The notes under the pieces: model-generated | Seen by the model: the letters and a program-made list of their open reading frames with translations, nothing else | Database searches by the model: none | Told to the model about the DNA's origin: nothing | Translations under genes and position numbers: made by a program | Part shown: positions 18,566 to 32,995 of the stretch, piece after piece | How the letters are laid out: every line of letters starts with the position of its first letter | Numbering within the stretch: the stretch's first letter is position 1 | Assembly (NCBI RefSeq): GCF_002090135.1 | Contig: NZ_BBRL01000004.1 | Location: 496,001 to 560,000 of the forward strand | DNA: 64,000 bases | Direction: 5' to 3' | Source of the DNA: Demequina sp. NBRC 110055 | GTDB taxonomy: Bacteria; Actinomycetota; Actinomycetes; Actinomycetales; Demequinaceae

Positions 18566-19543
18566 TCATCGGCGCCGCGGGGTGTCGGGGCGCGGCCGGT
18601 ACGAGCGCGGCGCGATGGAGGGGGGCATGGCGCGGCGCGTCGAGCCCGAGCGTGTGCGGCCCGTCTCGGGGGCCGATGCCGTGGCTGGGCTGGCGCCCTC
18701 CGCGGTGGTCGCGTGGGGGGCGCTGTCGCTGAAGTCCAGCGTGCGAATGCGCTCGATGAGCGCGCGGGCGTCCCGCGGGCGCTTCTTCGGGTTCTTCTCG
18801 AGGAGGTCCATGATGAGCGCGTTCATGGGATCCGACACCGTGGCCGGCAGCGGCGGGACGGCCTCGTTGACGTGAGCGATGGCGATGTCGACGGCCGCGG
18901 GCGCGGTGAACGGGCGCTTCCCGTTGACGGACTCGTACGCGATGATGCCCAGGGCGTACAGGTCGGAGGCGGGGGTGGCGGGCTTGCCCAGTGCCATCTC
19001 CGGCGCCAGGTACTGCGCGGTGCCCATCACCATGCCGGTCTGGGTCAGCGTGGTCTGGTCCATCGAACGCGAGACGCCGAAGTCGGTGATTTTCACGCGG
19101 TCACCCTCGCGCACCAGCAGATTGCCCGGCTTGATGTCGCGGTGCATGATGCCGGCGTCGTGGGCGACCGCGAGGCCGCGAGCGGTCTCGACCATGAGGT
19201 GGGCCAGACGCGGCTCGGCGAGGGTGCGCTCCCGCTCGAGGATGGTCGCGAGCGACTCGCCCTCGACGAGCTCCATCACCAGGTAGGCGGTGTCGTCGTG
19301 GTCGCCGTAGTCGTAGACCTGCGCGATGTTGTCGTGAAGCAACCCCGCGGCGTTGCGCGCCTCGTTGTGGAAGCGCTTGAGGAAGGTCTCGTTGGCGGCG
19401 GCGTGCTCCTTGAGGACCTTGATCGCGACGGGACGGTCCAGTTCGCTGTCCTCGCCTCGCCACACCTCGCCCATCCCGCCCACGGCAAGCAGGGAGCGCA
19501 GCACATAGCGGCCGCCAAGAGTGGTGCCGGCATGAAGTGTCAC
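18566..19543 (-). CDS. pknA: Ser/Thr protein kinase PknA, without a membrane segment
   Basis: 325 residues from the GTG at 19543, overlapping the pbpA stop (GTGA). The kinase motifs are complete: AVGGMGEVWRGED, VAIKVLKEH, HRDIKPGNLL, ITDFGVSR and YLAPEMALG. After the kinase domain (about residue 265) a short basic, Pro/Ser-rich tail ends in RRR, and no transmembrane helix is seen. Mycobacterial PknA has a membrane anchor and short exterior part, so this version appears cytosolic. It probably acts with PknB on division and wall-synthesis targets. Confidence 0.93.
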   Translation of the reverse strand: MTLHAGTTLGGRYVLRSLLAVGGMGEVWRGEDSELDRPVAIKVLKEHAAANETFLKRFHNEARNAAGLLHDNIAQVYDYGDHDDTAYLVMELVEGESLATILERERTLAEPRLAHLMVETARGLAVAHDAGIMHRDIKPGNLLVREGDRVKITDFGVSRSMDQTTLTQTGMVMGTAQYLAPEMALGKPATPASDLYALGIIAYESVNGKRPFTAPAAVDIAIAHVNEAVPPLPATVSDPMNALIMDLLEKNPKKRPRDARALIERIRTLDFSDSAPHATTAEGASPATASAPETGRTRSGSTRRAMPPSIAPRSYRPRPDTPRRR

Positions 19544-21009
19544 AGGTCACCCTCCCCGTCGAGGCGGATGGCTTCTTGCATGACGGCCTTCGCGATGGGG
19601 GCCGCGATGCGCCCGCCGGTCGCCTCCGAGCCCATCGAGCCGCCGTTCTCGACGACGACGGCGACGGCGACCACGGGGTCGTCCGCAGGGGCAAAGGACA
19701 CGAACCACGCGTGCGGAGGCGTGTCCTGGCCCGTTTCGGCCGTGCCGGTCTTGCCTGCCACCTCGACGCCGTCGATGCGCGCCGCGCTGCCCGTGCCGTC
19801 GTCGACGACGGTGACCATCATGTCGGTGAGCTTGTTGGCGTCGGAGCGGGTCATCGGAGTCGAGTAGACCTCGGGCTCGGTCACGTCGATGACCTGCAGG
19901 TCGGGGGCGCGCACCGAGTCGACGAGGTACGGCTTCATGAGGGTGCCGTCATTGGCGATCGCCGCGGCCACCATGGCCATCTGCAGCGGCGTGGAGCGCA
20001 CGTCGTACTGGCCGATGGCGCTCATGGCGGTCTGCGCCTCGTCGGGGTCCTCGGGGAGGCGTGAGGCGGTCACCGAGAGCGGCACGTCGATCTTGTCGGT
20101 CCACCCGAAGGATTCGGCCTTGCGTTGGATCACCTGCCACTGCAGCGTCATCCCCAGGTCGGCGAACGCGGTGTTGCAGCTGATGCGCAGGGCGTCCTCG
20201 AGCGTCATCGAGTCGTCGGAGGAACAGGCCTCCCCGCCGTAGTTGCCGATGGTGTTCGAGCTTTGGGGAAGGTCCAGTTCCGTGGGGGCATACAACTCGG
20301 TGTCCGGCTCGTAGCCCGCCTCGAGTGCCGCAGCGGCGTCGATGAGCTTGAACGTCGACCCGGGCGGGTAGGTGTCGCCGGCGATCGCCCGGTTGATGAG
20401 GGGGCCGTCGTCCTGGTTCAGGAGCGACTGGTAGTTCTCGTTGACGACCGACGAGTCGTGGCCGGCCAGCAGCGCGGGGTCGTACGTGGGGCTCGTCACC
20501 ATCGCGAGGATCTCGCCGGTCTCTGGCGCGAGCGCGATGACGGCGCCGCGTTGGTCGCCGAGTTGCTCGGCGGCCACCTGCTGGAGGCTGGACTTGAGCG
20601 TGAGCTCGACGGAGGCGCCCTGCTGTTGCTCGCCCGAAAACAGATTGCCCAGGCGGGTCCAGAACAGGGAGTCGGCGCTGCCGTTGAGGAGCTCGTTCTC
20701 GGTCTGTTCCAGGCCGGAGCGTCCATAGACGATGGAGTAGAACCCGGTCGCGGCGGCATAGAGGGAGCCGTCGGTGTACGTGCGCTGGTAGTTGAACGAA
20801 TCGTTGGACGGTTCCGACCAGACCACCGACTCGCCGTCGACGACGAGCGGACCACGGAAGTTGCCGTACTCGCGGTACAGCGTGCGGACGTTGCGCGGGT
20901 CCTGGCTGAGGGTCTCCTCGTTGACGACCTGGATCCACGAGGCGGCCGCCATGAGGGCGAGGAAAAGGATCAGGACCACGACGGATACGCGGCGGGCGGG
21001 CTCGTTCAT
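19540..21009 (-). CDS. pbpA: Class B penicillin-binding protein PbpA
   Basis: 489 residues starting MNEPARRVSVVVLILFLALM at 21009. That ATG overlaps the rodA stop, so the longer frame upstream is a shadow. One N-terminal membrane anchor precedes a pedestal domain and the transpeptidase domain. SxxK is in PGSTFKLIDA, SxN in ISCNTAFADLG and KTG in VAGKTGTAETGQ. The enzyme cross-links peptidoglycan, and the adjacent RodA is its expected glycosyltransferase partner. Confidence 0.95.
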   Translation of the reverse strand: MNEPARRVSVVVLILFLALMAAASWIQVVNEETLSQDPRNVRTLYREYGNFRGPLVVDGESVVWSEPSNDSFNYQRTYTDGSLYAAATGFYSIVYGRSGLEQTENELLNGSADSLFWTRLGNLFSGEQQQGASVELTLKSSLQQVAAEQLGDQRGAVIALAPETGEILAMVTSPTYDPALLAGHDSSVVNENYQSLLNQDDGPLINRAIAGDTYPPGSTFKLIDAAAALEAGYEPDTELYAPTELDLPQSSNTIGNYGGEACSSDDSMTLEDALRISCNTAFADLGMTLQWQVIQRKAESFGWTDKIDVPLSVTASRLPEDPDEAQTAMSAIGQYDVRSTPLQMAMVAAAIANDGTLMKPYLVDSVRAPDLQVIDVTEPEVYSTPMTRSDANKLTDMMVTVVDDGTGSAARIDGVEVAGKTGTAETGQDTPPHAWFVSFAPADDPVVAVAVVVENGGSMGSEATGGRIAAPIAKAVMQEAIRLDGEGDL

Positions 21010-22337
21010 GCGCTCACCGCCTCCGATGATCGCCTGGCCTGGTCGGAGACGCGCAGGAGGAGCGCGACCACGAGCCAGTTCGCCAACAACGAGGATCCGC
21101 CATAGGCGAGGAACGGAGCCGTGAGGCCGGTCAGTGGGATGACGCGCGTGACACCGCCCACCACGATGAAGACCTGGACCGCGATGGTGACGCCGAGTCC
21201 GGCGGCCAGCAGCTTGCCGAAGCCATCGCGCACACCGATGGAGGTGCGGAAGGCCCGCTGCACAATGATGATGTACAGCGTGAGGATGGCCATGAGGCCG
21301 GTGAGCCCCAGCTCCTCGCCCAGCGACGCGATGATGAAGTCGGACTCCGCGTAAGGCACGAGGTCGGGTCGCCCCTCCCCCAGGCCGGTGCCGAACAGGC
21401 CGCCCGAGGCCATGCCGAACAGGCCGCGCACCAGCTGCTCCGAGGTGCCCGACGAGTACACGTTGGCATCCAGCGCGTTCAGCCACGCCTCGAAGCGGCT
21501 GCGCACGTGAGGCACCGTGAGCGCCGCGAAGGCGCCGCCCACGAAGAACAGGCTCATGCCGATGGCGACCCAACTGAACCGCTCCGTAGCGACGTAGAGC
21601 ATCCCCAGGAAGATCGAGAAGAACAGCAGCGATGCGCCCAGATCACGCTCGTAGACCATGATCAGCATCGCGGCGAGCCACACGATGAGCAGTGGTCCCA
21701 TGTCGCGGATGCGCGGGAAGCGCATGCCGAGCACCTTGGGGCCCGCAAGCGCCAGCGTGTCGCGGTTGGTCACGAGGTAGCCGGCGAAGAAGATGACCAG
21801 CGCGATCTTCGCGAACTCGCCGGGCTGCACGGAGTTGCCCGCGATAGAGATCCAGATTCGCGCGCCGTTCACGGTGATGCCCAGGCCCGGCACCAGGGGC
21901 AACAGGTACAGGACCAGGCCCACGACCCCGGCGGTGTAGGTGTAGCGGCGGAGCTTCCGGTGGTCGCGGACCACCAGGAGGACACCGATCATGATCGCGA
22001 CGCCCAAGACGGCCCAGATCATCTGCTGCGTGCCGAAGCTGGTGTCCTCGGCGTAGTCGATGCGGCGAATCTCCGCGATGCCCACGCCGTTGAGCGCAAA
22101 CACGGCGGGCAGCAACACCGGGTCGGCGGACGGGGCCACGCGGCGCAGCGTGATGTGGGCGGCCAGCATCAGGCCGGCGACCGCGCCGCCGTAGATGGCG
22201 ATATCCACCAGCTCGAGGTAGGCCGCGTGATAGTCCACCAGGGCAAGCGCGAGCACGATGATCACCCACGCGAGCGCCATGAGCGTCAGCTCGCTGCGCC
22301 TGCCGGAGCGGACGGAGACCTCGGAGACGGTCGCCAC
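21006..22337 (-). CDS. rodA: SEDS family peptidoglycan glycosyltransferase RodA/FtsW
   Basis: 443 residues from a GTG at 22337, directly after the pstP frame on the other side. About ten membrane segments. SEDS signatures include VQPGEFAKIALVIFFAGYL, YERDLGASLLFFSIFLGMLYVA, and near the C terminus IPLTGLTAPFLAYGGSSLLANW. It polymerises lipid II into glycan strands together with the PbpA transpeptidase encoded next. Confidence 0.95.
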   Translation of the reverse strand: MATVSEVSVRSGRRSELTLMALAWVIIVLALALVDYHAAYLELVDIAIYGGAVAGLMLAAHITLRRVAPSADPVLLPAVFALNGVGIAEIRRIDYAEDTSFGTQQMIWAVLGVAIMIGVLLVVRDHRKLRRYTYTAGVVGLVLYLLPLVPGLGITVNGARIWISIAGNSVQPGEFAKIALVIFFAGYLVTNRDTLALAGPKVLGMRFPRIRDMGPLLIVWLAAMLIMVYERDLGASLLFFSIFLGMLYVATERFSWVAIGMSLFFVGGAFAALTVPHVRSRFEAWLNALDANVYSSGTSEQLVRGLFGMASGGLFGTGLGEGRPDLVPYAESDFIIASLGEELGLTGLMAILTLYIIIVQRAFRTSIGVRDGFGKLLAAGLGVTIAVQVFIVVGGVTRVIPLTGLTAPFLAYGGSSLLANWLVVALLLRVSDQARRSSEAVSA

Positions 22338-23684
22338 TTAGGCGTCTCCGGCGTCCGTGGAGGCGGCCGATGCCGTGGCGGGGGTGGGCGCGTCAGTGGC
22401 CGTGGGCGCGGGGCCGGGTGTGGCGGAGGCGCTCGCGGACGGGCTCGGGCTCGGCGTGGGGCTGGGCGTCGTGACCGGTTCGACGACGTCGAGGGACGCG
22501 ACGATGCCGCGGGCCTCCTCGAGGCTGCCCGCGCGGATGGTGGCCTCGATGCGCTGCTGCTGATAGGGCTCAAGGGTCGCGACCGGAATGCCGGTGTCCT
22601 CGACCAAGGTCTCAAGCTCGACAATCGGGAGGTCCTGCGGTATTCCCTGGTAAATCGCGACATTGAGGCCGTCGGAGCCCACAAAATACTGCGTCTGGGT
22701 CCACAGGTAGGCACCCCACGCTCCGCCGATGACGACGACGAGGGCGATGAGGGGCAGGACCCAGGGGCGCGCCTTCGCCCAGGCCTGGGAGCGGCGGCTG
22801 GGCCGCTCGTCCTCGTCCGGCTCGGGAGTGCGTGCCTGCAGACGGGCGGCGCGCCCGGCGGCGCCCGTGCCACCCGCGGTGGGGCGGTGCCGATCGGTCG
22901 CGGCGGCACCCACGATCTGAGTGGAGGACGGCGGCCCGACGCCGTCGGGCTGCGCGTCAATGTCGACGACGTCGGCGACGATGCAGGTGACGTTGTCCGG
23001 CGCTCCCGCGGACAGCGCGAGGCTCACCAGGGCGTCGGCACAGTCGCCGGGATCGTCGACCTCGGCGAGGGTCTTCGCGATGGTGTCGCGGCTGACGACA
23101 CCGGAAAGTCCGTCGGAGCACAGCATCCACCGGTCGCCCGCGCGGGTCTCACGCACCGAGATGTCCACGGGCACGTTCGCGTCCACGTCGCCCAGGACCC
23201 GCAGCAGCATCGAGCGCTTGGGGTGATTCTCGGCATCGGCCGCACTGAGCCGACCAGTGTCGACGAGGTGTTGCACAAAGCTGTGGTCGGTCGTGACCTG
23301 GTCCAGTGCGCCATCGCGGAGGAGGTAGGCGCGCGAGTCGCCGATATGCGCCATGGACAGCGAACTGCCGGCGCGCAGCAACGCCGTCACGGTGGTGCCC
23401 AGGCCGGACAGCTCGGGATCGTTGGCGGCGCGCTGCAGGATCTCGGCGTGTGCCTCCGCGATCGCCTGCTTGAGCTCGTCGAGCGCCTCGTCCGGTCCGT
23501 GGGATTCCCCGTCGAGCGCCGCGAGGCGGCCGACCGCGATCGAGGAGGCGATGTCGCCGCCCGCCGCGCCGCCCATGCCGTCGGCGACGACCAACAGGTG
23601 GGGTCCGGCAAAGGCGGAGTCCTGGTTGTTGGCGCGCACGAGGCCCACGTCGGAGCGTGCTGCGAAGTGAAGGGTGAGGAACAC
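22338..23684 (-). CDS. pstP: PP2C-type Ser/Thr phosphatase PstP
   Basis: 448 residues from the GTG at 23684, which has GAGGAG upstream; the longer frame overlaps fhaB and is rejected. PP2C motifs: RANNQDSAF, VVADGMGGAAGGD, GLGTTVTALL, HIGDSRAYLLRDG and CSDGLSGVVS. A linker leads to one membrane segment (PWVLPLIALVVVIGGAWGAYLW), an extracellular domain, and a low-complexity Pro/Ser/Thr/Ala tail. It reverses phosphorylation by PknA/PknB. The long PT-rich outer tail is more marked than I would expect from the mycobacterial protein. Confidence 0.94.
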   Translation of the reverse strand: MFLTLHFAARSDVGLVRANNQDSAFAGPHLLVVADGMGGAAGGDIASSIAVGRLAALDGESHGPDEALDELKQAIAEAHAEILQRAANDPELSGLGTTVTALLRAGSSLSMAHIGDSRAYLLRDGALDQVTTDHSFVQHLVDTGRLSAADAENHPKRSMLLRVLGDVDANVPVDISVRETRAGDRWMLCSDGLSGVVSRDTIAKTLAEVDDPGDCADALVSLALSAGAPDNVTCIVADVVDIDAQPDGVGPPSSTQIVGAAATDRHRPTAGGTGAAGRAARLQARTPEPDEDERPSRRSQAWAKARPWVLPLIALVVVIGGAWGAYLWTQTQYFVGSDGLNVAIYQGIPQDLPIVELETLVEDTGIPVATLEPYQQQRIEATIRAGSLEEARGIVASLDVVEPVTTPSPTPSPSPSASASATPGPAPTATDAPTPATASAASTDAGDA

Positions 23685-23686
23685 TG

Positions 23687-24208
23687 TTAGCTCCTCAGCT
23701 CCAGCGTGGTCGCCCCGAGTCGCAGGTGGTCGCCTCGCTTGAAGGGCATCGGGTCGCCCACCCGCTGGTTGTCGAGGTAGGTGCCGTTGGTGGAGCCCAG
23801 GTCCTCGACCCTCCACGCGTCGCCCTCGGGGTACACGCGGCAGTGCTTCGCCGAGCAGTAGTCGTCGTCGATGACCAGCGTGCAGGTGGGGGAGCGGCCG
23901 ATGAGCACGGGAGCCGAGCCGAGCGGAATGACCGTGCCCTTGAGGGGGCCGGAGGTGACGGCGAGGTGGCCCACCGCGGAGGCCTGCGTGTTGATCGCTC
24001 CCGCGCGCACGCCGGTGCCCGCGCGAGACGGTGCGGCGGTCTTGTTGGTGCGTGCGTCAGGACGGGACCGTGCATTGCGGCCGCGCCCGCGAGAGGTCAC
24101 GCGCGTGCCATAGAGGTCGGCACGGAGGACTCCGATCGCCGCCAGCACGAGGGCCCACAGCAGGATGAGGAACCCGAAGCGCAGGAGGGTGATCGAGATT
24201 TCGCTCAT
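23687..24208 (-). CDS. fhaB: FHA-domain protein FhaB (FipA-like)
   Basis: 173 residues starting MSEISITLLRFGFLILLWAL. One N-terminal membrane helix, a basic linker and a C-terminal FHA domain: VLIGRSPTCTLVIDDDYCSAKHCRVYP and DLGSTNGTYLDNQRV hold the phosphothreonine-binding Arg, Ser, and Asn residues. In mycobacteria this protein binds phosphorylated PknA/PknB targets at the division and growth zone. It ends 2 bases before the pstP start. Confidence 0.93.
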   Translation of the reverse strand: MSEISITLLRFGFLILLWALVLAAIGVLRADLYGTRVTSRGRGRNARSRPDARTNKTAAPSRAGTGVRAGAINTQASAVGHLAVTSGPLKGTVIPLGSAPVLIGRSPTCTLVIDDDYCSAKHCRVYPEGDAWRVEDLGSTNGTYLDNQRVGDPMPFKRGDHLRLGATTLELRS

Positions 24209-24212
24209 CGAA

Positions 24213-24920
24213 TCAACTGTCCTCTTCGGCAGGGACCGCGTCCCAGTACATGATCGTGGTGCGGCCCACGGTGATCGCGTTGCCGTCGAGCAACGTGACC
24301 TCGCTGACGCGCTGGTCCTCGACCATCGTGCCATTGGTCGAGCCCAAATCGGTGAGGATCGTGCCGTGCTCGGTGATCTCGAACCTGCAGTGCTGACGCG
24401 ACACCCCCGTGTCGTCGAGCACAATGTCCGATTCGGAGCCGCGGCCAATCACCGTCATCTCGCCCGTGAGGTGATAGCGCTGCCCGTCGACGTCGATGAG
24501 CGGGTAGCGCGAGCGGTCGTCGCGCTCCGTGGCGGGCGCCACGGGGCCGCGGGTGGAACGACTCGTCACGGCCAGACGCCCGGTCGCGAGCGACTCGTCC
24601 TCCTCGAAGGTGACCTTCACCGAACCCACAAAGGAGTAGCGCTGCTGGCGCGCATGGTCGCGCAGCGCCTCCTCGATCTCGTGCGCGAGCGCCTCGTCCC
24701 CCCACTGGCTGATGGCCTCGTGATCGGTGGCGCTCAACGCAATCGAGTACTCGTTCGGTGCGACAGTACGGTTGCGGTCGACGGCTGCCGAGCGCGCGTC
24801 GCATTCACGCCGCACGGCTGAAGCGATCTCGACCGGCTTGACCCCCGACTTGAAGGTCCGCGCGAAGGCTCCTTGCACGGCGTTCTCGACGCGCTTCTCG
24901 AAGCGATCCAGGACTCCCAT
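24213..24920 (-). CDS. fhaA: FHA-domain protein FhaA (DUF3662 + FHA)
   Basis: 235 residues starting MGVLDRFEKRVENAVQGAFA, the DUF3662 N-terminal domain, then a short linker and a C-terminal FHA domain (TVIGRGSESDIVLDDTGVSRQH, LGSTNGTMVEDQRV). In mycobacteria FhaA binds the phosphorylated pseudokinase domain of MviN/MurJ and limits wall synthesis. It is shorter than the ~500-residue mycobacterial FhaA, which has a long Pro/Gly-rich linker. No SD is well placed. A -10-like TATACG lies 10 bases upstream of the ATG on the minus strand, so a nearly leaderless transcript is possible. Confidence 0.93.
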   Translation of the reverse strand: MGVLDRFEKRVENAVQGAFARTFKSGVKPVEIASAVRRECDARSAAVDRNRTVAPNEYSIALSATDHEAISQWGDEALAHEIEEALRDHARQQRYSFVGSVKVTFEEDESLATGRLAVTSRSTRGPVAPATERDDRSRYPLIDVDGQRYHLTGEMTVIGRGSESDIVLDDTGVSRQHCRFEITEHGTILTDLGSTNGTMVEDQRVSEVTLLDGNAITVGRTTIMYWDAVPAEEDS

Positions 24921-24929
24921 ATGGGGAAT

Positions 24930-24935
24930 CGTATA
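24930..24935 (-). promoter_or_regulatory. Probable -10 element of a nearly leaderless fhaA transcript
   Basis: TATACG on the minus strand ends 9 bases before the fhaA ATG (24920); the usual 6-7 base offset puts transcription start within a few bases of the start codon. The only GGAGG (about 20 bases upstream) is too far away to act as an SD. A good -35 is not visible. The whole divergent region to tRNA-Leu is 48 bp. Confidence 0.4.
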
Positions 24936-24968
24936 GTGCCTCCGAGTCGTGCTAAAGTTGCCCGGCAC

Positions 24969-25052
24969 GCGCGAGTGGCGGAATAGGCAGACGCGCACGG
25001 TTCAGGTCCGTGTGCCCGAAAGGGCGTGGGGGTTCAACTCCCCCCTCGCGCA
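24969..25052 (+). tRNA. leuT: tRNA-Leu (anticodon CAG)
   Basis: 84 nt without CCA. The acceptor stem GCGCGAG (24969-24975) pairs with CTCGCGC (25045-25051), with discriminator A at 25052. The anticodon loop TTCAGGT is closed by CACGG/CCGTG and reads CAG. A long variable arm (TGCCCGAAAGGGCG) and a GGTTCAA T-loop identify a class II leucine tRNA. The 3' CCA is not encoded. tRNA-Leu next to fhaA is conserved in mycobacteria. Confidence 0.97.
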
Positions 25053-25202: not shown

Positions 25203-26216
25203 TCACGCCACCGCCGAGACCACCACGAGCACCGGCCCGCACAGCGCCGTCGTCGCCACGCACGCCCGCGAGGCCACATCAACCGAGCAGCGGTACCTGT
25301 TCGCGTAGACCACCACGTTTTGCGCCGTGGGCAGCGCAGCCATCGCGACCACCATCGTGAGCGCGGTCCCCTCGAGCCCGGCGAGCGATCCCACCAGCCA
25401 CGTGAGGGCGGGGTGCACCACGGCGCGGGCAGCGATCGCCAGCCCCAGCGGCGCGGCCAACCCCCTCGATCCGGCCAACCCCGCACCCATGCCGCCATCT
25501 TCGCCCGGGCCTACGGGCGCATCGGCCATCCGCACGTCCTTGGCGAGCGACATGCCGAGCGTCAGCAGTGCGAGCGGGGGAGCGGCGGCTCCTACCAGGG
25601 AGAACGGCTCGAGCGCGGCCTCGGGGATCGACCACGGTAGCAGCGCGAGCACCAGGCCCGCGAGCGTCGCGAGGGTGAGGGGATTGAGGATGGCCGATGC
25701 GACGGCCCCCTTGCGTACGGGCGCATCCCCGTCGTCCCTGACCCGGGAGGCGGCGATGGGAAGGGGCGTGGCATCGGCCGCGCGCCCCAGTACCCCGAAC
25801 GCGACCGGCGCCATGACGAGCAGCTGCACCAGCATCGTGGGCACCACGGCGAGGGCGTCGCCAAAGAGATAGACGGCGAGCGGCAGCCCGAGGTTCCCGG
25901 CGTTGACGTACGAGCCCGACAGCGCCGTGATGGTGGCGCGGCCGGCCGGCAGTCGCATGCCCCAGCGAGCGATGACGACGAGCACCCCGGCGAGCGCGAG
26001 GCTCGTGCCCCAGGTCACGGCCGCCCCCCGCGAGGCGAGCGTCCCGAGGTCCGCATGGGCGACGGTCGCGAGCAGGAGGCAAGGGCTCGCGATGGAGAAG
26101 CAGACGGTCGCGAGGATCTCGCGTGAGCCGTGGGGGAGCCACCCGCGCGCCTGGATCAGCCAGCCGGCCGCAACGACCAGGCCCATCGTCACCAGGGCGG
26201 TGACGACCTCGCTCAC
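25203..26216 (-). CDS. AEC family (auxin efflux carrier-type) transporter
   Basis: 337 residues from the GTG at 26216, which overlaps the oxidoreductase stop (GTGA). About ten membrane segments in two halves: LVTMGLVVAAGWLIQARGWLP at the start, SYVNAGNLGLPLAVYLFGD in the middle and MVVAMAALPTAQNVVVYANRY near the end are typical AEC/BASS-like helices. Family members move organic anions; the substrate here is unknown. It is the last gene of the minus-strand operon that begins with the LacI-DUF6807 regulator, so its cargo may be a product of that pathway. Confidence 0.88.
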   Translation of the reverse strand: MSEVVTALVTMGLVVAAGWLIQARGWLPHGSREILATVCFSIASPCLLLATVAHADLGTLASRGAAVTWGTSLALAGVLVVIARWGMRLPAGRATITALSGSYVNAGNLGLPLAVYLFGDALAVVPTMLVQLLVMAPVAFGVLGRAADATPLPIAASRVRDDGDAPVRKGAVASAILNPLTLATLAGLVLALLPWSIPEAALEPFSLVGAAAPPLALLTLGMSLAKDVRMADAPVGPGEDGGMGAGLAGSRGLAAPLGLAIAARAVVHPALTWLVGSLAGLEGTALTMVVAMAALPTAQNVVVYANRYRCSVDVASRACVATTALCGPVLVVVSAVA

Positions 26217-27412
26217 GCGTGGGTCCAGGGAGCCCCGAGTTCGGCGAAGGTGCGGCCCTGCGCCGCCACCTCCTCGCACCACGCGGCGACGTCGCGCACC
26301 ACGGGGTGACGTTCATCGCCCTCTCCCGCCCAGTCGACGTGCGCCGGGTCGATGGAGCGCGGGTCGGGGGCGGTGCGGACGGCTTCCATGACTCGCATGA
26401 AAGCACCGGTGTCTCGCACGTCGCAAGCAAGCGGGCGACCGGGAGTCGACCTCGCGGCGACGAGATTCTCGAGGAGGTCGTCCCGCGAGTACTGCTTTTC
26501 GAGGTCGACGGAGTCAGTAACGAGGCGTACCCGGTCCGTCTCGTATGCGAGCTCGATGCGCCCGCGGGTGCCGTGAATGAGGATGCGGGCGGGGGTGCGC
26601 TCGGGCGCGCACAGGGTGAGGCCGAACCCGCAGCGCATGCCGTCCGCGGTCGTGACCCGCACCGACGAGGTGTCGTCGGCCTCGATGGGATTGGCGCGGT
26701 ACAGGTCGACATCGACGCCTGCGACGTCCGCGGAACGGGTCGCGCCCGCGATCCTCAGGCCCGTCGCGACGGCGTGTGCCAGGGGATTCGTGACGACCCC
26801 GTCAACCACGTCACGGCCGTCCAGTTGACGCTTGCCCGCCCACGGCGCGCGCGCCCAGTAGGCGGTGGTGCGCACCCAAAGCCCCACCGCGCCCACGCCG
26901 GTGACGTCGCCGATCTCGCCGTCGGCGATCAGCCTGTCGACTGCCGTCAGCGCGTGCGAGCCGAAGGTCTGGAACCCCACCTGACACAGGCGCCCTGTCT
27001 CCTCGGCGACGGCCACGAGCGCGGTGTGCTCGGCAAGCGACGCCGCGGTGGGCTTCTCGAGCAGCACGTCGAGCCCGGCGCGCATGGCCGCGCTGGCGAG
27101 CGGCACGTGGGTGGGGATGGGGGTCGACAGGACCACGATGTCGGGGCGGACCTCGGGCTCGGGCGCGGAGAGCAGATCACCCAGGGTGGGGAACCACGGC
27201 GCGCCGTCGCCTGCCGCGGCCGACCCGTGGCGAGGACCGCCGGGCCCGCCCGTGGCGGGGACCTCGTCGGTCTCGAGCGGGCGTGGGTCGACGAGGGCGC
27301 TGAGGCGCACCACACCGCGCGCCTCAAGGTCCCGGATGCGTCTGAGGTGGGCGCCGCCGTGGCCGTGGATGCCGACCAGGGCGACGGCCGGTGCCGCCCC
27401 TGCCGTCGTCAT
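26213..27412 (-). CDS. Gfo/Idh/MocA family oxidoreductase
   Basis: 399 residues starting MTTAGAAPAVALVGIHGHGG, an N-terminal NAD(P)-binding fold whose glycine motif (GIHGHGGAH) is a variant of GxGxxG. VLLEKPTAASLAEHTALV is the family's conserved EKP motif, and the C-terminal sheet domain contains DVVDGVVTNPLAHAVATGLR. Such enzymes oxidise or reduce sugars and derivatives. The ATG overlaps the LacI-DUF6807 stop. A DUF6807 (PmoA-like) domain beside a Gfo/Idh/MocA enzyme is a recurring pairing in sugar loci. Confidence 0.9.
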   Translation of the reverse strand: MTTAGAAPAVALVGIHGHGGAHLRRIRDLEARGVVRLSALVDPRPLETDEVPATGGPGGPRHGSAAAGDGAPWFPTLGDLLSAPEPEVRPDIVVLSTPIPTHVPLASAAMRAGLDVLLEKPTAASLAEHTALVAVAEETGRLCQVGFQTFGSHALTAVDRLIADGEIGDVTGVGAVGLWVRTTAYWARAPWAGKRQLDGRDVVDGVVTNPLAHAVATGLRIAGATRSADVAGVDVDLYRANPIEADDTSSVRVTTADGMRCGFGLTLCAPERTPARILIHGTRGRIELAYETDRVRLVTDSVDLEKQYSRDDLLENLVAARSTPGRPLACDVRDTGAFMRVMEAVRTAPDPRSIDPAHVDWAGEGDERHPVVRDVAAWCEEVAAQGRTFAELGAPWTHA

Positions 27413-29451
27413 CGCACGTCCGCGGCGTCGCTCGCGAGTCTCGCGGCCTCCTCGAGGCTCACGGCGCGGTCGAGCAGGACGGTGGTGAGGCCGATCTCGA
27501 CCGTGCCGCCGTCGGGGATGGTGAGCGGGCGGTCCCACGCGAGCGCCGGGCCGGCGCCGGGGTACTCGGCTGCGCGGACGAACCAGGGCCTCGCGGCGCC
27601 GTGCTGGACCGCAAGCCAGGTGGTCGCATCGGCCCCCTCGCCCTGCACAAACGCGAGCCAGGGGGAACGCGAGCCGTGCGCGGTCTGCTCGCCCTCGCCG
27701 CCCTCGCTCAGCACCGTGGTGGTGGCGGCGAGCGGTAGGCGCCAGAACCATCCGCCATAGCCCGCGCCGCGCCGCCCGTTGGTAGCAGGGGAGCCGATGG
27801 TCACGCCGCCATGCTCGGCGCGCAGCACCGAGCGCCACGTGAGCGCCCATGCCTCGTCCCCCGCGAGCAGGTGGGCGCCCAGCCGGCGCGACTCCTCCAG
27901 TTGAGCGTCGTCGTTCTCGTCGTACCAGCGCACCGCGTCGCGCAGGATGTGCGGATCGGTGCCGTCGACGACGGGGCCCGCGCTGACCTGTTGCCCGTGG
28001 TTTTCGAGCAGGGTGGGGCCCACGTCGCGCACAAAGGTCCGCCCGCCCCAATAGCTGGTGCCGTTGACGTCTGGCACCGCGAGGGACACGCCGTAGTGGT
28101 GGCGGTGGTCCACCGGCGCGGCGTCGGTGAGGACGCGGCCCGCAAGCGTGTGGACGGGGTGCAGGTACGGGCGTCGTGCATGCACTTGCGGCAGGCGCGC
28201 GCCCGATTCGTACCGGGCCAGCGGCTCGCCGCGCCACTCGAGCACGGTCACGTCCCCGTCCGGGTGCCACGCTGGTCCGCCGTCACGCGTGACGCCAGCC
28301 TGGGCGGCCGATGCCGGGGAGGCGGCCGATGCGCCACGGCCCTCCGTACGCGTCACCGGGCTGGCAGCCGCTTGCGTACCGGCGCTCGCGGGCTGGGCGG
28401 CGGGGCTGGGGGCGAGGCCACCCTCGGCCACCGACCGGGGCACGGGGCCTGTGCTGGAGCGCACCTCGAGGCGGGGCTCGAACCTGGTGTGAGGGGAGGC
28501 GGTGGTGCCTTGGTTCTCGATCACGGTGAACAGCTCCTGCCAGGCGTGACGACCCAACTCGTGCTGGGGCACGGCCACGGTGGTGAGGGACGGGGTGGAG
28601 TACTGCGCGAGCTCGATGTCGTCGAAGCCGGTGACGGAGATGTCTCCCGGCACCGCCACGCCCGCCTGGTTCAGTGCCGCGAGCAGGCCGAATGCCGCCA
28701 GGTCGTTGAAGGCCACCACGGCGGTGGCGCGGGCCGCGAGCACACCGTCGCGCGCGCCGTAGCCCGCGGCGACCGTCGCCCCGGCGGGGACCTCGACGAT
28801 GTCGAGCCCGGGGTGGATCCGTGCGGCCTCGGCGAGGCCCTCGCGCCTGCGCGCGTCGGCGTAGCTGGGCGGGGGGCCGGCGAGGTAGACGATGCGCGTG
28901 TGGCCCAGGTCCACGAGGTGCCGGATTACCGCGAGGGTGCCCGCGCGGTAGTTCACCGTGAGGCTCGGCACGGACGGCTCGGGGCTTTCGCGGTTGACGA
29001 GCACCATGGGGCTCGCCTGGCGCACGAGCGTGGCGAGCTGCTCTTGGGGCATGCGCGGCGAGACCAGCACGAGCGCGTCGCAGCGCATGCGGGCCTCGAG
29101 CGCGATGGCGGCCTCGTCCTGCGGGTTCTCCGCGGTGTCCGCGACGAGCACGCGGTAGCCCCGAGTCGCGGCCGCATCGGTGATGCCGCTGAGCACGTGC
29201 TGAAACATCGGGTTGGTGAGATCGGGGACCACGAGCGCGACCGTCTCGGTGCGCCCCAGTGACAGGCTTCGCGCCACGTTCGAGGGGCGGTACTGGAGCT
29301 CCTCGGCGACGGCCAGGACGCGCGCGGCGATGTCCTCAGCCACCGTGGCGCGCCCGTTCATGACCCGCGACACCGTGGCGCGCGACACCCCGGCGGCGTC
29401 GGCCACATCGCCAATCGTCGCAGCCGTGCGGGGCCGGCTGACCTTAGGCAT
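27409..29451 (-). CDS. LacI-type regulator fused to a DUF6807 (PmoA-like) domain
   Basis: 680 residues in one uninterrupted frame. ATG 29451 is chosen because GGAG lies 6 bases upstream; ATG 29463 is the alternative. Residues 1-60 form the LacI helix-turn-helix (ATIGDVADAAGVSRATVSRVMNG), and residues 65-345 a periplasmic-binding-protein-like sensor (VALVVPDLTNPMFQHVL, VTGFDDIELAQYSTPSLTTV). A ~50-residue Ala/Pro/Ser linker then leads, from about residue 395, into a DUF6807 domain (WRGEPLARYESGARLPQ, RPYLHPVHT, PVDHRHHYGVSLAVPDVNG, SYWGGRTFV, YGGWFWRLP). DUF6807 is normally a separate protein beside oxidoreductases. The linker contains two of the window's GCATCGGC octamers. It probably represses the divergent ABC operon. 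Confidence 0.9.
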   Translation of the reverse strand: MPKVSRPRTAATIGDVADAAGVSRATVSRVMNGRATVAEDIAARVLAVAEELQYRPSNVARSLSLGRTETVALVVPDLTNPMFQHVLSGITDAAATRGYRVLVADTAENPQDEAAIALEARMRCDALVLVSPRMPQEQLATLVRQASPMVLVNRESPEPSVPSLTVNYRAGTLAVIRHLVDLGHTRIVYLAGPPPSYADARRREGLAEAARIHPGLDIVEVPAGATVAAGYGARDGVLAARATAVVAFNDLAAFGLLAALNQAGVAVPGDISVTGFDDIELAQYSTPSLTTVAVPQHELGRHAWQELFTVIENQGTTASPHTRFEPRLEVRSSTGPVPRSVAEGGLAPSPAAQPASAGTQAAASPVTRTEGRGASAASPASAAQAGVTRDGGPAWHPDGDVTVLEWRGEPLARYESGARLPQVHARRPYLHPVHTLAGRVLTDAAPVDHRHHYGVSLAVPDVNGTSYWGGRTFVRDVGPTLLENHGQQVSAGPVVDGTDPHILRDAVRWYDENDDAQLEESRRLGAHLLAGDEAWALTWRSVLRAEHGGVTIGSPATNGRRGAGYGGWFWRLPLAATTTVLSEGGEGEQTAHGSRSPWLAFVQGEGADATTWLAVQHGAARPWFVRAAEYPGAGPALAWDRPLTIPDGGTVEIGLTTVLLDRAVSLEEAARLASDAADVR

Positions 29452-29509
29452 ACGTTTCTCCATCGTGAATCGCGTCCGGTGCACCCTCGTCGTTGAGGAT
29501 GTGCGGGCG

Positions 29510-29592
29510 GGAAACCTGTTTCCTAGTTGTGACCGTACACCATTGGAAACCGGTTCCACGTGTGATACGTTCTGAATCGGAAAGCGGTTTCA
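29510..29592. promoter_or_regulatory. Three LacI-type operators with a probable promoter
   Basis: Three similar palindromes lie between the divergent genes: GGAAACCTGTTTCC (29510-29523), GGAAACCGGTTCC (29545-29557) and GGAAAGCGGTTTCA (29579-29592). They share a GGAAAC-GTTTCC design typical of LacI-family operators with a central CG-type step. The second overlaps a possible -35 (TTGGAA 29543-29548), 17 bases from a weak -10 (TACGTT 29566-29571). The third would lie at about +1. Binding by the adjacent regulator is inferred. Confidence 0.7.
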
Positions 29593-29645: not shown

Positions 29646-29717
29646 ATGCTTGTGCCGATGAGCCGACGCCAGGGGGGCGTCCTTGCAGCGGGGGTGACGC
29701 ATGTCCGTCGTCTCTGA
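29646..29717 (+). CDS. Possible 23-codon leader ORF overlapping the permease start
   Basis: ATG 29646 has a perfect GGAGG SD 5 bases upstream (29636-29640). It encodes MLVPMSRRQGGVLAAGVTHV and three more residues before TGA, in a different frame from the permease. It overlaps the first 17 bases of the permease gene, whose own SD is only GGGGGTG. The strongest ribosome site of the transcript therefore serves this short ORF, suggesting coupling or attenuation. It shows no known motif. Confidence 0.45.
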   Translation: MLVPMSRRQGGVLAAGVTHVRRL

Positions 29718-30639
29718 GCTGCGTTCCGTCCGCCGCCCCAAGGGCAAGCGGCGCCCGTCCGCGCTTCACAAAGGCGACGGCAAGGCCGCGATCTTCTTTC
29801 TGGGGCCGTGGTTCCTGGGGTTGATCCTCATCACTGCTGGCCCCATGGCCGCATCGGCCTACCTGTCGTTCACGGACTACAGCCTGCTCGAGGCCCCCAA
29901 CTGGATTGGCCTCGACAACTACACCCGCATGTTCGAGGACCCGCGACTGATCAACTCGCTCAAGGTCACGTTCATGTATGTGCTGATCTCGGTGCCGCTG
30001 CAGCTGGCCGCGGCGCTCGCGCTCGCGCTGGTGCTCGACCGGGGCCTTCGGGGCCTCGCGATCTACCGCTCGGTGTATTACCTGCCGTCGTTGCTCGGCG
30101 GATCGGTCGCGATCGCGCTGCTGTGGCGTCAGGTGTTCGGCGCGGACGGCCTGGTCAACGCGGTGCTTGCATGGTTTGGCATCGAGGGCGAGGGGTGGGT
30201 CTCGCACCCCGACTACGCGCTCGGCACTCTGATGATCCTGAACATCTGGACCTTCGGCGCCCCCATGATCATCTTCCTCGCGGGCCTGCGTCAGATCCCG
30301 CAGATGTACTACGAGGCCGCGTCGATCGACGGCGCTAGCAAGTGGCGGCAGTTCACGTCGATCACCATCCCGCTGCTCACGCCCATCATCTTCTTCAATC
30401 TGGTGCTGCAGCTCATCAACGCCTTCCAGACGTTCACCCAGGCCTACGTGGTCAGTGGAGGAACGGGCGGCCCGGCGGATTCGACGATGTTCTACACGCT
30501 CTACCTCTACCAAAAGGGCTTCGCGTCCCTCGACATGGGCTACGCGTCCGCGATGGCGTGGCTGCTTCTCGCGATCGTCGCCGGCATGACGGCCGTCAAC
30601 TTCCTCGTCTCCAAGTATTGGGTTTTCTACAATGACTGA
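29701..30639 (+). CDS. Sugar ABC transporter permease (MalF-type)
   Basis: 312 residues with six membrane segments. ABC-importer permease features: FFLGPWFLGLILITAGPM, DYSLLEAPNWIGLDNY near the N terminus, and the cytoplasmic EAA loop YYEAASIDGASKWRQFTSITIPLLTPII, which docks on the ATPase. It belongs to the carbohydrate uptake (CUT1) type. First main gene of the plus-strand operon, downstream of three LacI-type operators. Confidence 0.94.
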   Translation: MSVVSELRSVRRPKGKRRPSALHKGDGKAAIFFLGPWFLGLILITAGPMAASAYLSFTDYSLLEAPNWIGLDNYTRMFEDPRLINSLKVTFMYVLISVPLQLAAALALALVLDRGLRGLAIYRSVYYLPSLLGGSVAIALLWRQVFGADGLVNAVLAWFGIEGEGWVSHPDYALGTLMILNIWTFGAPMIIFLAGLRQIPQMYYEAASIDGASKWRQFTSITIPLLTPIIFFNLVLQLINAFQTFTQAYVVSGGTGGPADSTMFYTLYLYQKGFASLDMGYASAMAWLLLAIVAGMTAVNFLVSKYWVFYND

Positions 30640-31561
30640 GTCATCCGTGCGTGACAAGGCACCCGCGACCACCCCCGACATCGTCGCGATGGCGGAGCGC
30701 TACCCCGAGCCCCAGGAGAAGCCCACCTACTGGCGCTCGCGGACGCGCTCGCTCCTCAAGCACGCGGGCCTCATCGCCTTCGGCCTGGTGATGCTCTACC
30801 CGCTGCTGTGGATGATCGCGAGCTCGTTCAAGCCCGACGCGATCATCTTCCGCGAGCCGGGGCTGTGGCCCACCGACGTGACCCTCGAGAACTACACGGA
30901 GGGCTGGAACGCGCTCCTGCACCCGTTCAGCCACTACCTCCTGAATTCCGCGATCATCGTGGCCGGCTCGCTGGTGGGCAACCTGGTGGCCTGCTCGATG
31001 GCGGCCTACGCGTTCGCGCGGCTCGAGTTCCGTGGCCGCGGGCTGTGGTTCGCGATCATGCTGATGTCGATCATGCTGCCGATCCACGTGATCATCGTGC
31101 CGCAGTACATCCTGTTCTCCGAGCTCAACTGGATCAACACGTTCCTGCCGTTGATCGTGCCCAAGCTGCTCGCGACCGATGCGTTCTTCATCTTCCTCAT
31201 GGTGCAGTTCTTCCGCGGCATCCCGCGCGAGCTCGACGAGGCGGCCAGGCTCGACGGCTGTGGCCACTTCCGCATCTATTTCCGCATCATGCTGCCGCTG
31301 TCGCTGCCGGCCCTGGCGACGACCGCGATCTTCACGTTCATCTGGACGTGGAACGACTTCTTCAGCCAGCTGATCTTCCTGACCCGACCGGACATGTACA
31401 CCGTTCCGGTCGCGCTGCGCACGTTCATCGACGCGACCTCGGAGAGCTCATGGGGTTCCCTGTTCGCCATGTCGATCGTGTCGCTCATCCCCATCTTCCT
31501 GGTCTTCCTGTTTGGCCAGAAGTACCTCGTCAAGGGCATCGCCACGACGGGAATCAAGTAG
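30632..31561 (+). CDS. Sugar ABC transporter permease (MalG-type)
   Basis: 309 residues, overlapping the previous gene by 8 bases. The N-terminal ~45 residues are cytoplasmic and polar. Six membrane segments follow, with the EAA loop ELDEAARLDGCGHFRIYFRIMLPLSLPAL. FTFIWTWNDFFSQLIFL and the final GQKYLVKGIATTGIK are typical of MalG-type permeases. It forms the channel with the preceding permease. No ATPase gene is in the operon; a shared MsiK-type ATPase elsewhere is the usual actinobacterial arrangement. Confidence 0.94.
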   Translation: MTESSVRDKAPATTPDIVAMAERYPEPQEKPTYWRSRTRSLLKHAGLIAFGLVMLYPLLWMIASSFKPDAIIFREPGLWPTDVTLENYTEGWNALLHPFSHYLLNSAIIVAGSLVGNLVACSMAAYAFARLEFRGRGLWFAIMLMSIMLPIHVIIVPQYILFSELNWINTFLPLIVPKLLATDAFFIFLMVQFFRGIPRELDEAARLDGCGHFRIYFRIMLPLSLPALATTAIFTFIWTWNDFFSQLIFLTRPDMYTVPVALRTFIDATSESSWGSLFAMSIVSLIPIFLVFLFGQKYLVKGIATTGIK

Positions 31562-31624
31562 CACGGCGCCTTCCCCGGTGCATCCGACCGAAGAACAACG
31601 AAGTTCCACGTGAAGGAGAAGAAC

Positions 31625-32995
31625 ATGACCATCAAGATCACCAGCCGCGCGGGGGCGCGCACGATGGCATGGCGCTCGAGTGCGGTGCTCGCCGCAGGCG
31701 TCCTCACCCTCGCCGCGTGCAGCGGTGACAACGGCGCCGCCCCCGAGGAGGAGCCAGAGGCAACCGGCAGTGCCACCGCCGACGGCAGCTCGGAGGCCGC
31801 GGAGGACCAGGCCGAGATCCGCTTCTCATGGTGGGGCTCCGATGAGCGTCACACGCTGACCCAGGAGGTCATCGACCTCTTCATGGAGAAGAACCCCGAC
31901 ATCACCGTGGTGCCTGACTACACCGACTGGGGCGGCTATTGGGACAAGCTGGCCACGACCGTGGCCGGCGGCGACACCCCCGACGTCATGACGCAGGAGG
32001 AGCGCTACCTCACTGACTACGCCAACCGCGGCGTGGTGGGCGACCTCGCGGCGCTCGGACTCGACACCTCCATGATCGACCCGAGCGTGATCCAGTCCGG
32101 CACCATCGACGGCAAGCTCGCCGGCGTGGCCACCGGCATCAACGCGTACGCGATCGTCGCCGACCCCCAGATCTTCGAGGAGGCGGGCGTCGAGATGCCC
32201 GACGACACGACCTGGACCTGGGACGACTTCGTGTCGATCAGCACCGAGATCTCGGACGCGCTGGGCGACGACGTCTACGGCGTGCAGGACTACGGCGGCA
32301 ACGAGGCGGGCTTCAACATCTACGCCCGCCAGCACGGCGAGTCGCTCTACACCGAGGAGGGCACGCTCGGCTACGAGGACGCGACCCTCGAGGCGTGGTG
32401 GCAGCACCTCGTCGATCTGCGCGAGGCCGGCGCGATGCCCGACGGTGCGCGTAGCGTCGAGATCGCCGAGGGTGGTCCCGAGCAGTCGCTGCTGGGTACC
32501 AACACCGGAGCCATGGGCATGTGGTGGACCAACCAGCTGGGCGCCATCTCCGCCGCAGCGGGCCGCGACCTGGTGCTGCTGCGCCTGCCAGGAGAGAGCG
32601 AGAGCGAGCGCACCGGCATGTACTTCAAGCCTGCCATGTTCTACTCGGTCGCCGCGGACACCGAGTACCCCGAGGCAGCCACGGCGTTCGTCGACTTCCT
32701 CATCAACGACCCCGAGGCCGGCGCGCTGATCCTGTCCGACCGCGGCCTCAACGCCAACACCGACGTGCGTGAAGCAGTGTCGTCGCAGCTCGACCCGCTC
32801 GAGCAGCAGGCCGCCGAGTTCCTCGCGGCACTCGAGTCTGAGATCGTCGACGGTCCGCCGGCCCCGCCCAACGGCGCGGCCGACGTGCCCGAGATCGCCG
32901 GCCGCATCAACGAGCAGGTGCTGTTCGACACGGTCAGCCCCGCGGAGGCGGCCGCTCAGTTCACGTCCGAGGCCTCGTCGGCCATCGGTCAGTGA
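31625..32995 (+). CDS. Sugar-binding lipoprotein of the ABC importer
   Basis: 456 residues. ATG 31625 has AAGGAGAAGAAC directly before it, so the GTG at 31610 is rejected. The signal sequence ends in a lipobox (LTLAAC), giving a lipid-anchored Cys followed by an acidic, Ala/Glu-rich linker. The mature domain begins EIRFSWWGSDERHTLTQEVI and has the extracellular solute-binding family 1 pattern (YTDWGGYWDKLATTVAGGDTP). The GGxTPD-type segment points to a carbohydrate ligand; the specific sugar cannot be read from sequence. Confidence 0.94.
   Translation: MTIKITSRAGARTMAWRSSAVLAAGVLTLAACSGDNGAAPEEEPEATGSATADGSSEAAEDQAEIRFSWWGSDERHTLTQEVIDLFMEKNPDITVVPDYTDWGGYWDKLATTVAGGDTPDVMTQEERYLTDYANRGVVGDLAALGLDTSMIDPSVIQSGTIDGKLAGVATGINAYAIVADPQIFEEAGVEMPDDTTWTWDDFVSISTEISDALGDDVYGVQDYGGNEAGFNIYARQHGESLYTEEGTLGYEDATLEAWWQHLVDLREAGAMPDGARSVEIAEGGPEQSLLGTNTGAMGMWWTNQLGAISAAAGRDLVLLRLPGESESERTGMYFKPAMFYSVAADTEYPEAATAFVDFLINDPEAGALILSDRGLNANTDVREAVSSQLDPLEQQAAEFLAALESEIVDGPPAPPNGAADVPEIAGRINEQVLFDTVSPAEAAAQFTSEASSAIGQ

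Follow-up and report, generated by a model that had tools for sequence, protein, structure and literature searches.

The systems closest to the gene described here are the LacI/GalR regulators (RbsR, CcpA and PurR types), the trigger enzymes PutA, BirA and NadR, and the regulator BzdR. DUF6807 is a widespread family for which we know of no established function, and no demonstrated activity was found in the literature for any of its members. In BzdR a helix-turn-helix (HTH) is combined with a shikimate-kinase-like domain which lost its activity and became an effector domain (PMC3602430). The DUF6807 profile PF14100, under its old name PmoA, has served as a profile for the methane monooxygenase PmoA (PMC10291797). 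The genomic context described here gives no support for a methane monooxygenase function of DUF6807. Our literature search found DUF6807 or PF14100 mentioned in passing only, and found no paper describing a LacI-DUF6807 fusion. LacI-DUF6807 proteins do occur in public genomes and the architecture is therefore already present in databases; it belongs to a known kind of protein, the one-component regulators to which an enzyme-like domain is attached.

We analysed such a fusion within a 64,000-nucleotide stretch of DNA from Demequina sp. NBRC 110055 (referred to here as the window, Table 1). The gene spans 27409–29451 on the minus strand including its stop, and 27412–29451 translates without a stop into an uninterrupted frame of 680 residues. 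The initial annotation had claimed that a complete LacI repressor continues in the same frame into a complete DUF6807 domain, and had suggested a domain search as a check; Pfam placed the LacI HTH, the effector domain (Peripla_BP_3 match at residues 176–334, E 4e−34) and a complete DUF6807 domain all in this one frame, which bears the claim out. The DUF6807 match is full-length at the level of the family, scoring 204 bits against a curated cut-off of 27. The Ala/Pro/Ser linker which had been described is also present, but is somewhat longer than the roughly 50 residues claimed. The Gfo/Idh/MocA oxidoreductase (Gfo) said to be the next gene is indeed there, and DUF6807 genes do normally lie beside genes of this type, as had been stated. 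A profile search of the PDB found no credible relative of DUF6807 (best E 0.066), and a single-sequence AlphaFold prediction was unusable as a structure (pLDDT 34.6).

Table 1. Features of the fusion gene and its surroundings, in window coordinates.
Feature	Position	Strand	Evidence or remark
Membrane transporter (Mem_trans, AEC-type), third in likely operon	25203–26213	-	PF03547
Gfo/Idh/MocA oxidoreductase, ATGA overlap with fusion	26216–27412	-	PF01408 (5e−14), PF22725
DUF6807 domain, residues 404–673	27433–28242	-	PF14100 E 3.7e−60, profile positions 4–269 of 270
DUF6807 core motif PVDHRHHYG, residues 446–454	28090–28116	-	H449 and H452 kept
Ala/Pro/Ser-rich linker, residues 336–403 (~68 aa), fast evolving	28243–28446	-	
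LacI effector-binding/dimerisation core, residues 69–335	28447–29247	-	PF00532/PF13377
LacI HTH DNA-binding domain, residues 12–57	29281–29418	-	PF00356 E 4e−16
Shine-Dalgarno GGAGA for start codon at 29451	29457–29461	-	Read from sequence
Operator-like palindrome GAAACCTGTTTC	29511–29522	.	1 mismatch to GAAANCGNTTTC
Operator-like site GAAACCGGTTCC	29546–29557	.	1 mismatch
Operator-like site GAAAGCGGTTTC	29580–29591	.	Exact match
ABC sugar-type permease, divergent from fusion	29701–30636	+	PF00528
ABC sugar-type permease	30632–31558	+	PF00528
ABC extracellular solute-binding protein	31610–32992	+	PF01547/PF13416

The order of an N-terminal LacI HTH and then a periplasmic-binding-protein-like domain (PF00356, PF13377 and PF00532) is that of the LacI/GalR family. 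In an alignment of 31 fusions the pocket positions R202, N249, D250 and D277 were invariant; we take these to be the counterparts of the sugar-contacting residues in LacI and PurR, and the conserved pocket suggests that the ligand may be a sugar.

We ruled out a sequencing or assembly error joining two genes, because the full-length fusion is found in independent genomes: four further genomes of Demequina have orthologues (96, 77, 72 and 70% identity), the public record NZ_BBRH01000007.1 (L026) has one, and 45 genomes have the fusion altogether. Frameshifted copies were also seen at L151:6862–9033 (G230) and L062:6650–8646 (G011). The G011 assembly is 50%-complete with several indels and its frameshift resembles an assembly error, so these two copies are no argument against the fusion.

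DUF6807 was present in 88 of the 396 genomes sampled within the order. We fetched 140 regions and counted a DUF6807 domain as fused only if its frame also held a match to the LacI or Gfo profile, a rule adopted because many of the long open frames are high-GC artefacts. This gave 136 DUF6807 domains, including 47 fused to LacI (in 45 genomes from six families), 21 fused to Gfo and 68 fused to neither. Within a phylum-wide sample (296 genomes, with four candidates scored per genome) full LacI-DUF6807 matches occurred inside the order only, and scans of viral contigs found no relatives.

Comparing pairs of Demequina orthologues, we found DUF6807 to be under purifying selection (dN/dS 0.06–0.30), as is the LacI part (0.02–0.31). 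The linker is looser, with values of 0.27–0.56 for the four pairs which could be computed, dS being saturated in the other two. It is conceivable that two proteins arise from the one frame, through an internal start or through proteolysis in the linker, which looks flexible, and in-frame GTG codons lie at residues 337–423. However, no clear Shine-Dalgarno sequence was seen by eye at any of these GTGs and the linker sequence is not conserved, and we consider this explanation very improbable.

In a tree of 101 DUF6807 domains all of the LacI-fused domains fell into one clade with a few non-fused members. This clade is sister to the Gfo-fused clade, with most solo domains on the other side. The tree of all 136 domains requires more changes for the LacI-fused rows, largely because solo copies from family f13 fall among them. 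The LacI halves, in a tree without the Demequina fusions, form one subfamily which includes non-fused members, several of which adjoin Gfo-DUF6807 fusions or solo DUF6807 genes. The LacI-DUF6807 fusion is old, and a single origin followed by later fissions would be the simplest reading of these trees, although not a proven one. The two halves might also be independent functions passively tethered for co-expression, with neither domain affecting the other. This would be in keeping with a variable, weakly constrained linker (5–58 residues between the domain matches, dN/dS up to 0.56), with the fusion of the same DUF6807 to Gfo elsewhere and with the non-fused copies inside the LacI-fused clade. 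Against it stands the retention of the fusion over six families when adjacent genes would be co-expressed anyway, and we regard a purely passive linkage as quite unlikely.

DUF6807 has two alternative fusion partners, LacI in the window clade and Gfo in the sister clade, where DUF6807 forms the C-terminus of the oxidoreductase, an arrangement also found in Nonomuraea (L206). Gfo-DUF6807 fusions were seen at L076, L078, L079, L082–L086, L088, L089, L091, L093–L095, L100, L103, L109, L113, L121 and L206. The Gfo proteins fused in the sister clade come from one subfamily, and the Gfo adjacent to the window fusion is a member of it; the profile of this subfamily gives scores of 301–610 for its members versus ≤ 147 for all other Gfo proteins. 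The same subfamily is adjacent to 22 of the 47 LacI-DUF6807 fusions, and the solo DUF6807 genes of the outer clade are paired with Gfo proteins of other kinds. As read from these gene arrangements, fusion and adjacency tie DUF6807 both to this oxidoreductase subfamily and to the regulator, and partners limited to one regulator and one oxidoreductase subfamily leave fewer candidates to assay. The only other DUF6807 in the window genome is a standalone gene of the outer clade (L063:6753–7622; G000:C5:166752–167612), which adjoins another LacI and other, different Gfo genes.

We also examined which residues of DUF6807 are conserved. In all groups H449, W468–G470, E520, R522, R560, Y565, R571, R626 and D661 show no or almost no variation. 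Every residue which is invariant in solo and Gfo-fused DUF6807 is kept in the window protein (H449, H452, W468-G-G, E520, R560, Y565, R571, R626 and D661) except W451. This is the Trp of the core motif PxDHxWHxG, in which both histidines are present in the window protein and the Trp is replaced by His. Outer-clade solo and Gfo-fused domains have W451, and H451 (DHRHHYG versus DHxWHxG) is found throughout the LacI-fused clade; its non-fused members also carry the change, which alone is therefore no sign of lost function. The initial annotation had raised the possibility of a regulator which also binds or processes a pathway compound; the retention of the invariant residues, W451 apart, is compatible with this. 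An enzymatic role for DUF6807 is suggested by this conservation and by gene context.

Both H449 and H452 are kept in all of the fusions with an adjacent Gfo (22/22), and one histidine is lost in 15 of the 25 fusions without one. The losses, of H452 or H449, were found in families f13 and f14 and in genomes G142 and G241; L108, for instance, naturally carries H452Q, and its genome also has a solo copy. For 13 of these 15 fusions the genome has a separate pair of Gfo and solo DUF6807, the solo copy keeping both histidines; the remaining two (G142 and G241) are from genomes without the Gfo subfamily. Both histidines are kept despite there being no adjacent Gfo in family f11, the second copy in G116, G196, G290 and G301. 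It should be noted that the losses amount to about two independent changes on the tree and that the association with Gfo is not significant after phylogenetic correction, so it is suggestive only. The G142 and G241 fusions (L116 and L170) have H449R, G559S and R560G, and their DUF6807 is probably non-catalytic. A second enzyme copy scored for L059 and L126 was not real and came from a loose Gfo cut-off; the histidine/Gfo counts are unaffected.

These losses bear on another explanation, that DUF6807 is a non-catalytic ligand-binding sensor through which the LacI regulator would respond to a further metabolite such as the product of the Gfo, with BzdR as a precedent (PMC3602430). In genomes of f13 and f14, as in G142/G241, the fused copy lacks H452 or H449, and most of the histidine-loss genomes have an intact Gfo and solo DUF6807 pair elsewhere. 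However, neither histidine is missing from the window lineage or from any fusion that has a Gfo next to it, the window genome has no other DUF6807 from the clade of the fusion, and the LacI pocket is itself conserved, so that an extra sensor is not required. Overall we consider the sensor explanation possible but doubtful. For the window lineage we lean somewhat towards an active DUF6807 over a pure sensor, and in lineages of the f13, f14 and G142 type the sensor reading appears the more likely. The LacI fusions look like a natural series, with the core histidines kept or lost depending on whether there is a separate copy, and this makes the idea of enzymes becoming sensors directly testable.

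All three operator-like sites lie within the divergent promoter common to the fusion operon and the ABC importer. The 2.82-Mb genome has a single exact copy of the core GAAANCGNTTTC, at 29580, and the pair formed by the 29546 and 29580 sites, with its 34-bp spacing, is unique genome-wide even when one mismatch is allowed. Across 38 fusion loci we found 62 operator-like sites per 52.6 kb of intergenic sequence versus 7 per 471 kb of coding sequence, a density ~79 times higher, and the sites are often paired 34 or 46 bp apart. A palindromic operator-like site near the regulator's own gene, conserved at other fusion loci, is a further feature of LacI/GalR regulators. Similar operator cores are common to many LacI regulators, so the sites point to local LacI-type control and not to the identity of the ligand.

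Genes found around other fusions encode GH43, arabinofuranosidase, pectinesterase-GDSL, rhamnogalacturonan lyase, GH95 and altronate dehydratase, and a Streptomyces plasmid has the gene row xylanase-Gfo-'PmoA'-cupin-arabinofuranosidase. Because of these neighbours, plant-cell-wall sugars or sugar acids are the likely substrates of the pathway in general. The window's own cluster contains no plant-cell-wall hydrolase of such types; its Mem_trans gene is conserved across Demequina fusion loci. The pectinesterase-GDSL esterase fusions close to LacI-DUF6807 genes are at L120:6877–8550 and L107:3319–4884. Judged by eye, window positions 19540–25000 hold an ordinary actinobacterial cell-division/peptidoglycan-type cluster, including penicillin-binding protein, FtsW/RodA-like, PP2C-like and FHA-domain genes. 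From operator-like sites and neighbours, the fusion looks like a local regulator of the importer and of a Gfo/DUF6807 pathway whose sugars are probably those of plant cell walls. The fusion, kept in about 45 of the sampled species, suggests a repressor which also has a part in its own target pathway or senses that pathway directly.

We propose that the protein is a local LacI-family repressor whose attached DUF6807 would still be the partner enzyme of the adjacent Gfo, in the manner of a trigger enzyme, and we judge this to have about an even chance of being correct. The LacI half would most likely bind the operator-like sites at 29511–29591 and would repress both divergent transcripts, one encoding the ABC importer and the other fusion-Gfo-Mem_trans; we infer that a pathway sugar in the LacI pocket would lift this repression. 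The DUF6807 half would most likely act together with the Gfo, the substrate probably being a sugar or sugar acid from plant cell walls. LacI-type repressors are usually scarce, which would be odd for an enzyme and counts against a combined repressor and enzyme. The fusion heads the operon which it probably represses, so induction would raise the amount of the single polypeptide, which would suit an enzyme.

A further proposal, which we regard as rather unlikely, is that turnover of a pathway intermediate by an active DUF6807 sets the repression state of LacI, with an order-wide series running from repressor-enzyme to pure sensor once the enzyme function had moved to a separate copy.

Compared with known systems, the window protein shares with LacI/GalR regulators the HTH, the effector domain, the sugar-pocket residues and palindromic operator-like sites adjoining a sugar importer, but adds a 270-residue C-terminal DUF6807. 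Its DUF6807 is a full-length domain with nearly all of the invariant residues of PF14100, but is fused to a regulator and has His in place of the PxDHxWHxG Trp, as across the LacI-fused clade. The Gfo-DUF6807 fusions (for example L078, L079 and, in Nonomuraea, L206) belong to the same DUF6807 superclade and involve the same oxidoreductase subfamily, whereas there the oxidoreductase is the partner and any LacI is separate. As in BzdR, a linker connects the DNA-binding part with an enzyme-derived domain (PMC3602430); BzdR, however, has neither catalysis nor a LacI effector domain, and the loss of catalytic residues seen in BzdR was not found in the window protein, which keeps both conserved core histidines, presumably catalytic. 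Like the trigger enzymes, the window protein would combine DNA binding and a proposed pathway enzyme in one polypeptide; unlike them, it carries a complete, separate effector-binding regulator and its catalysis is putative. The status of a trigger enzyme would be compatible with these features.
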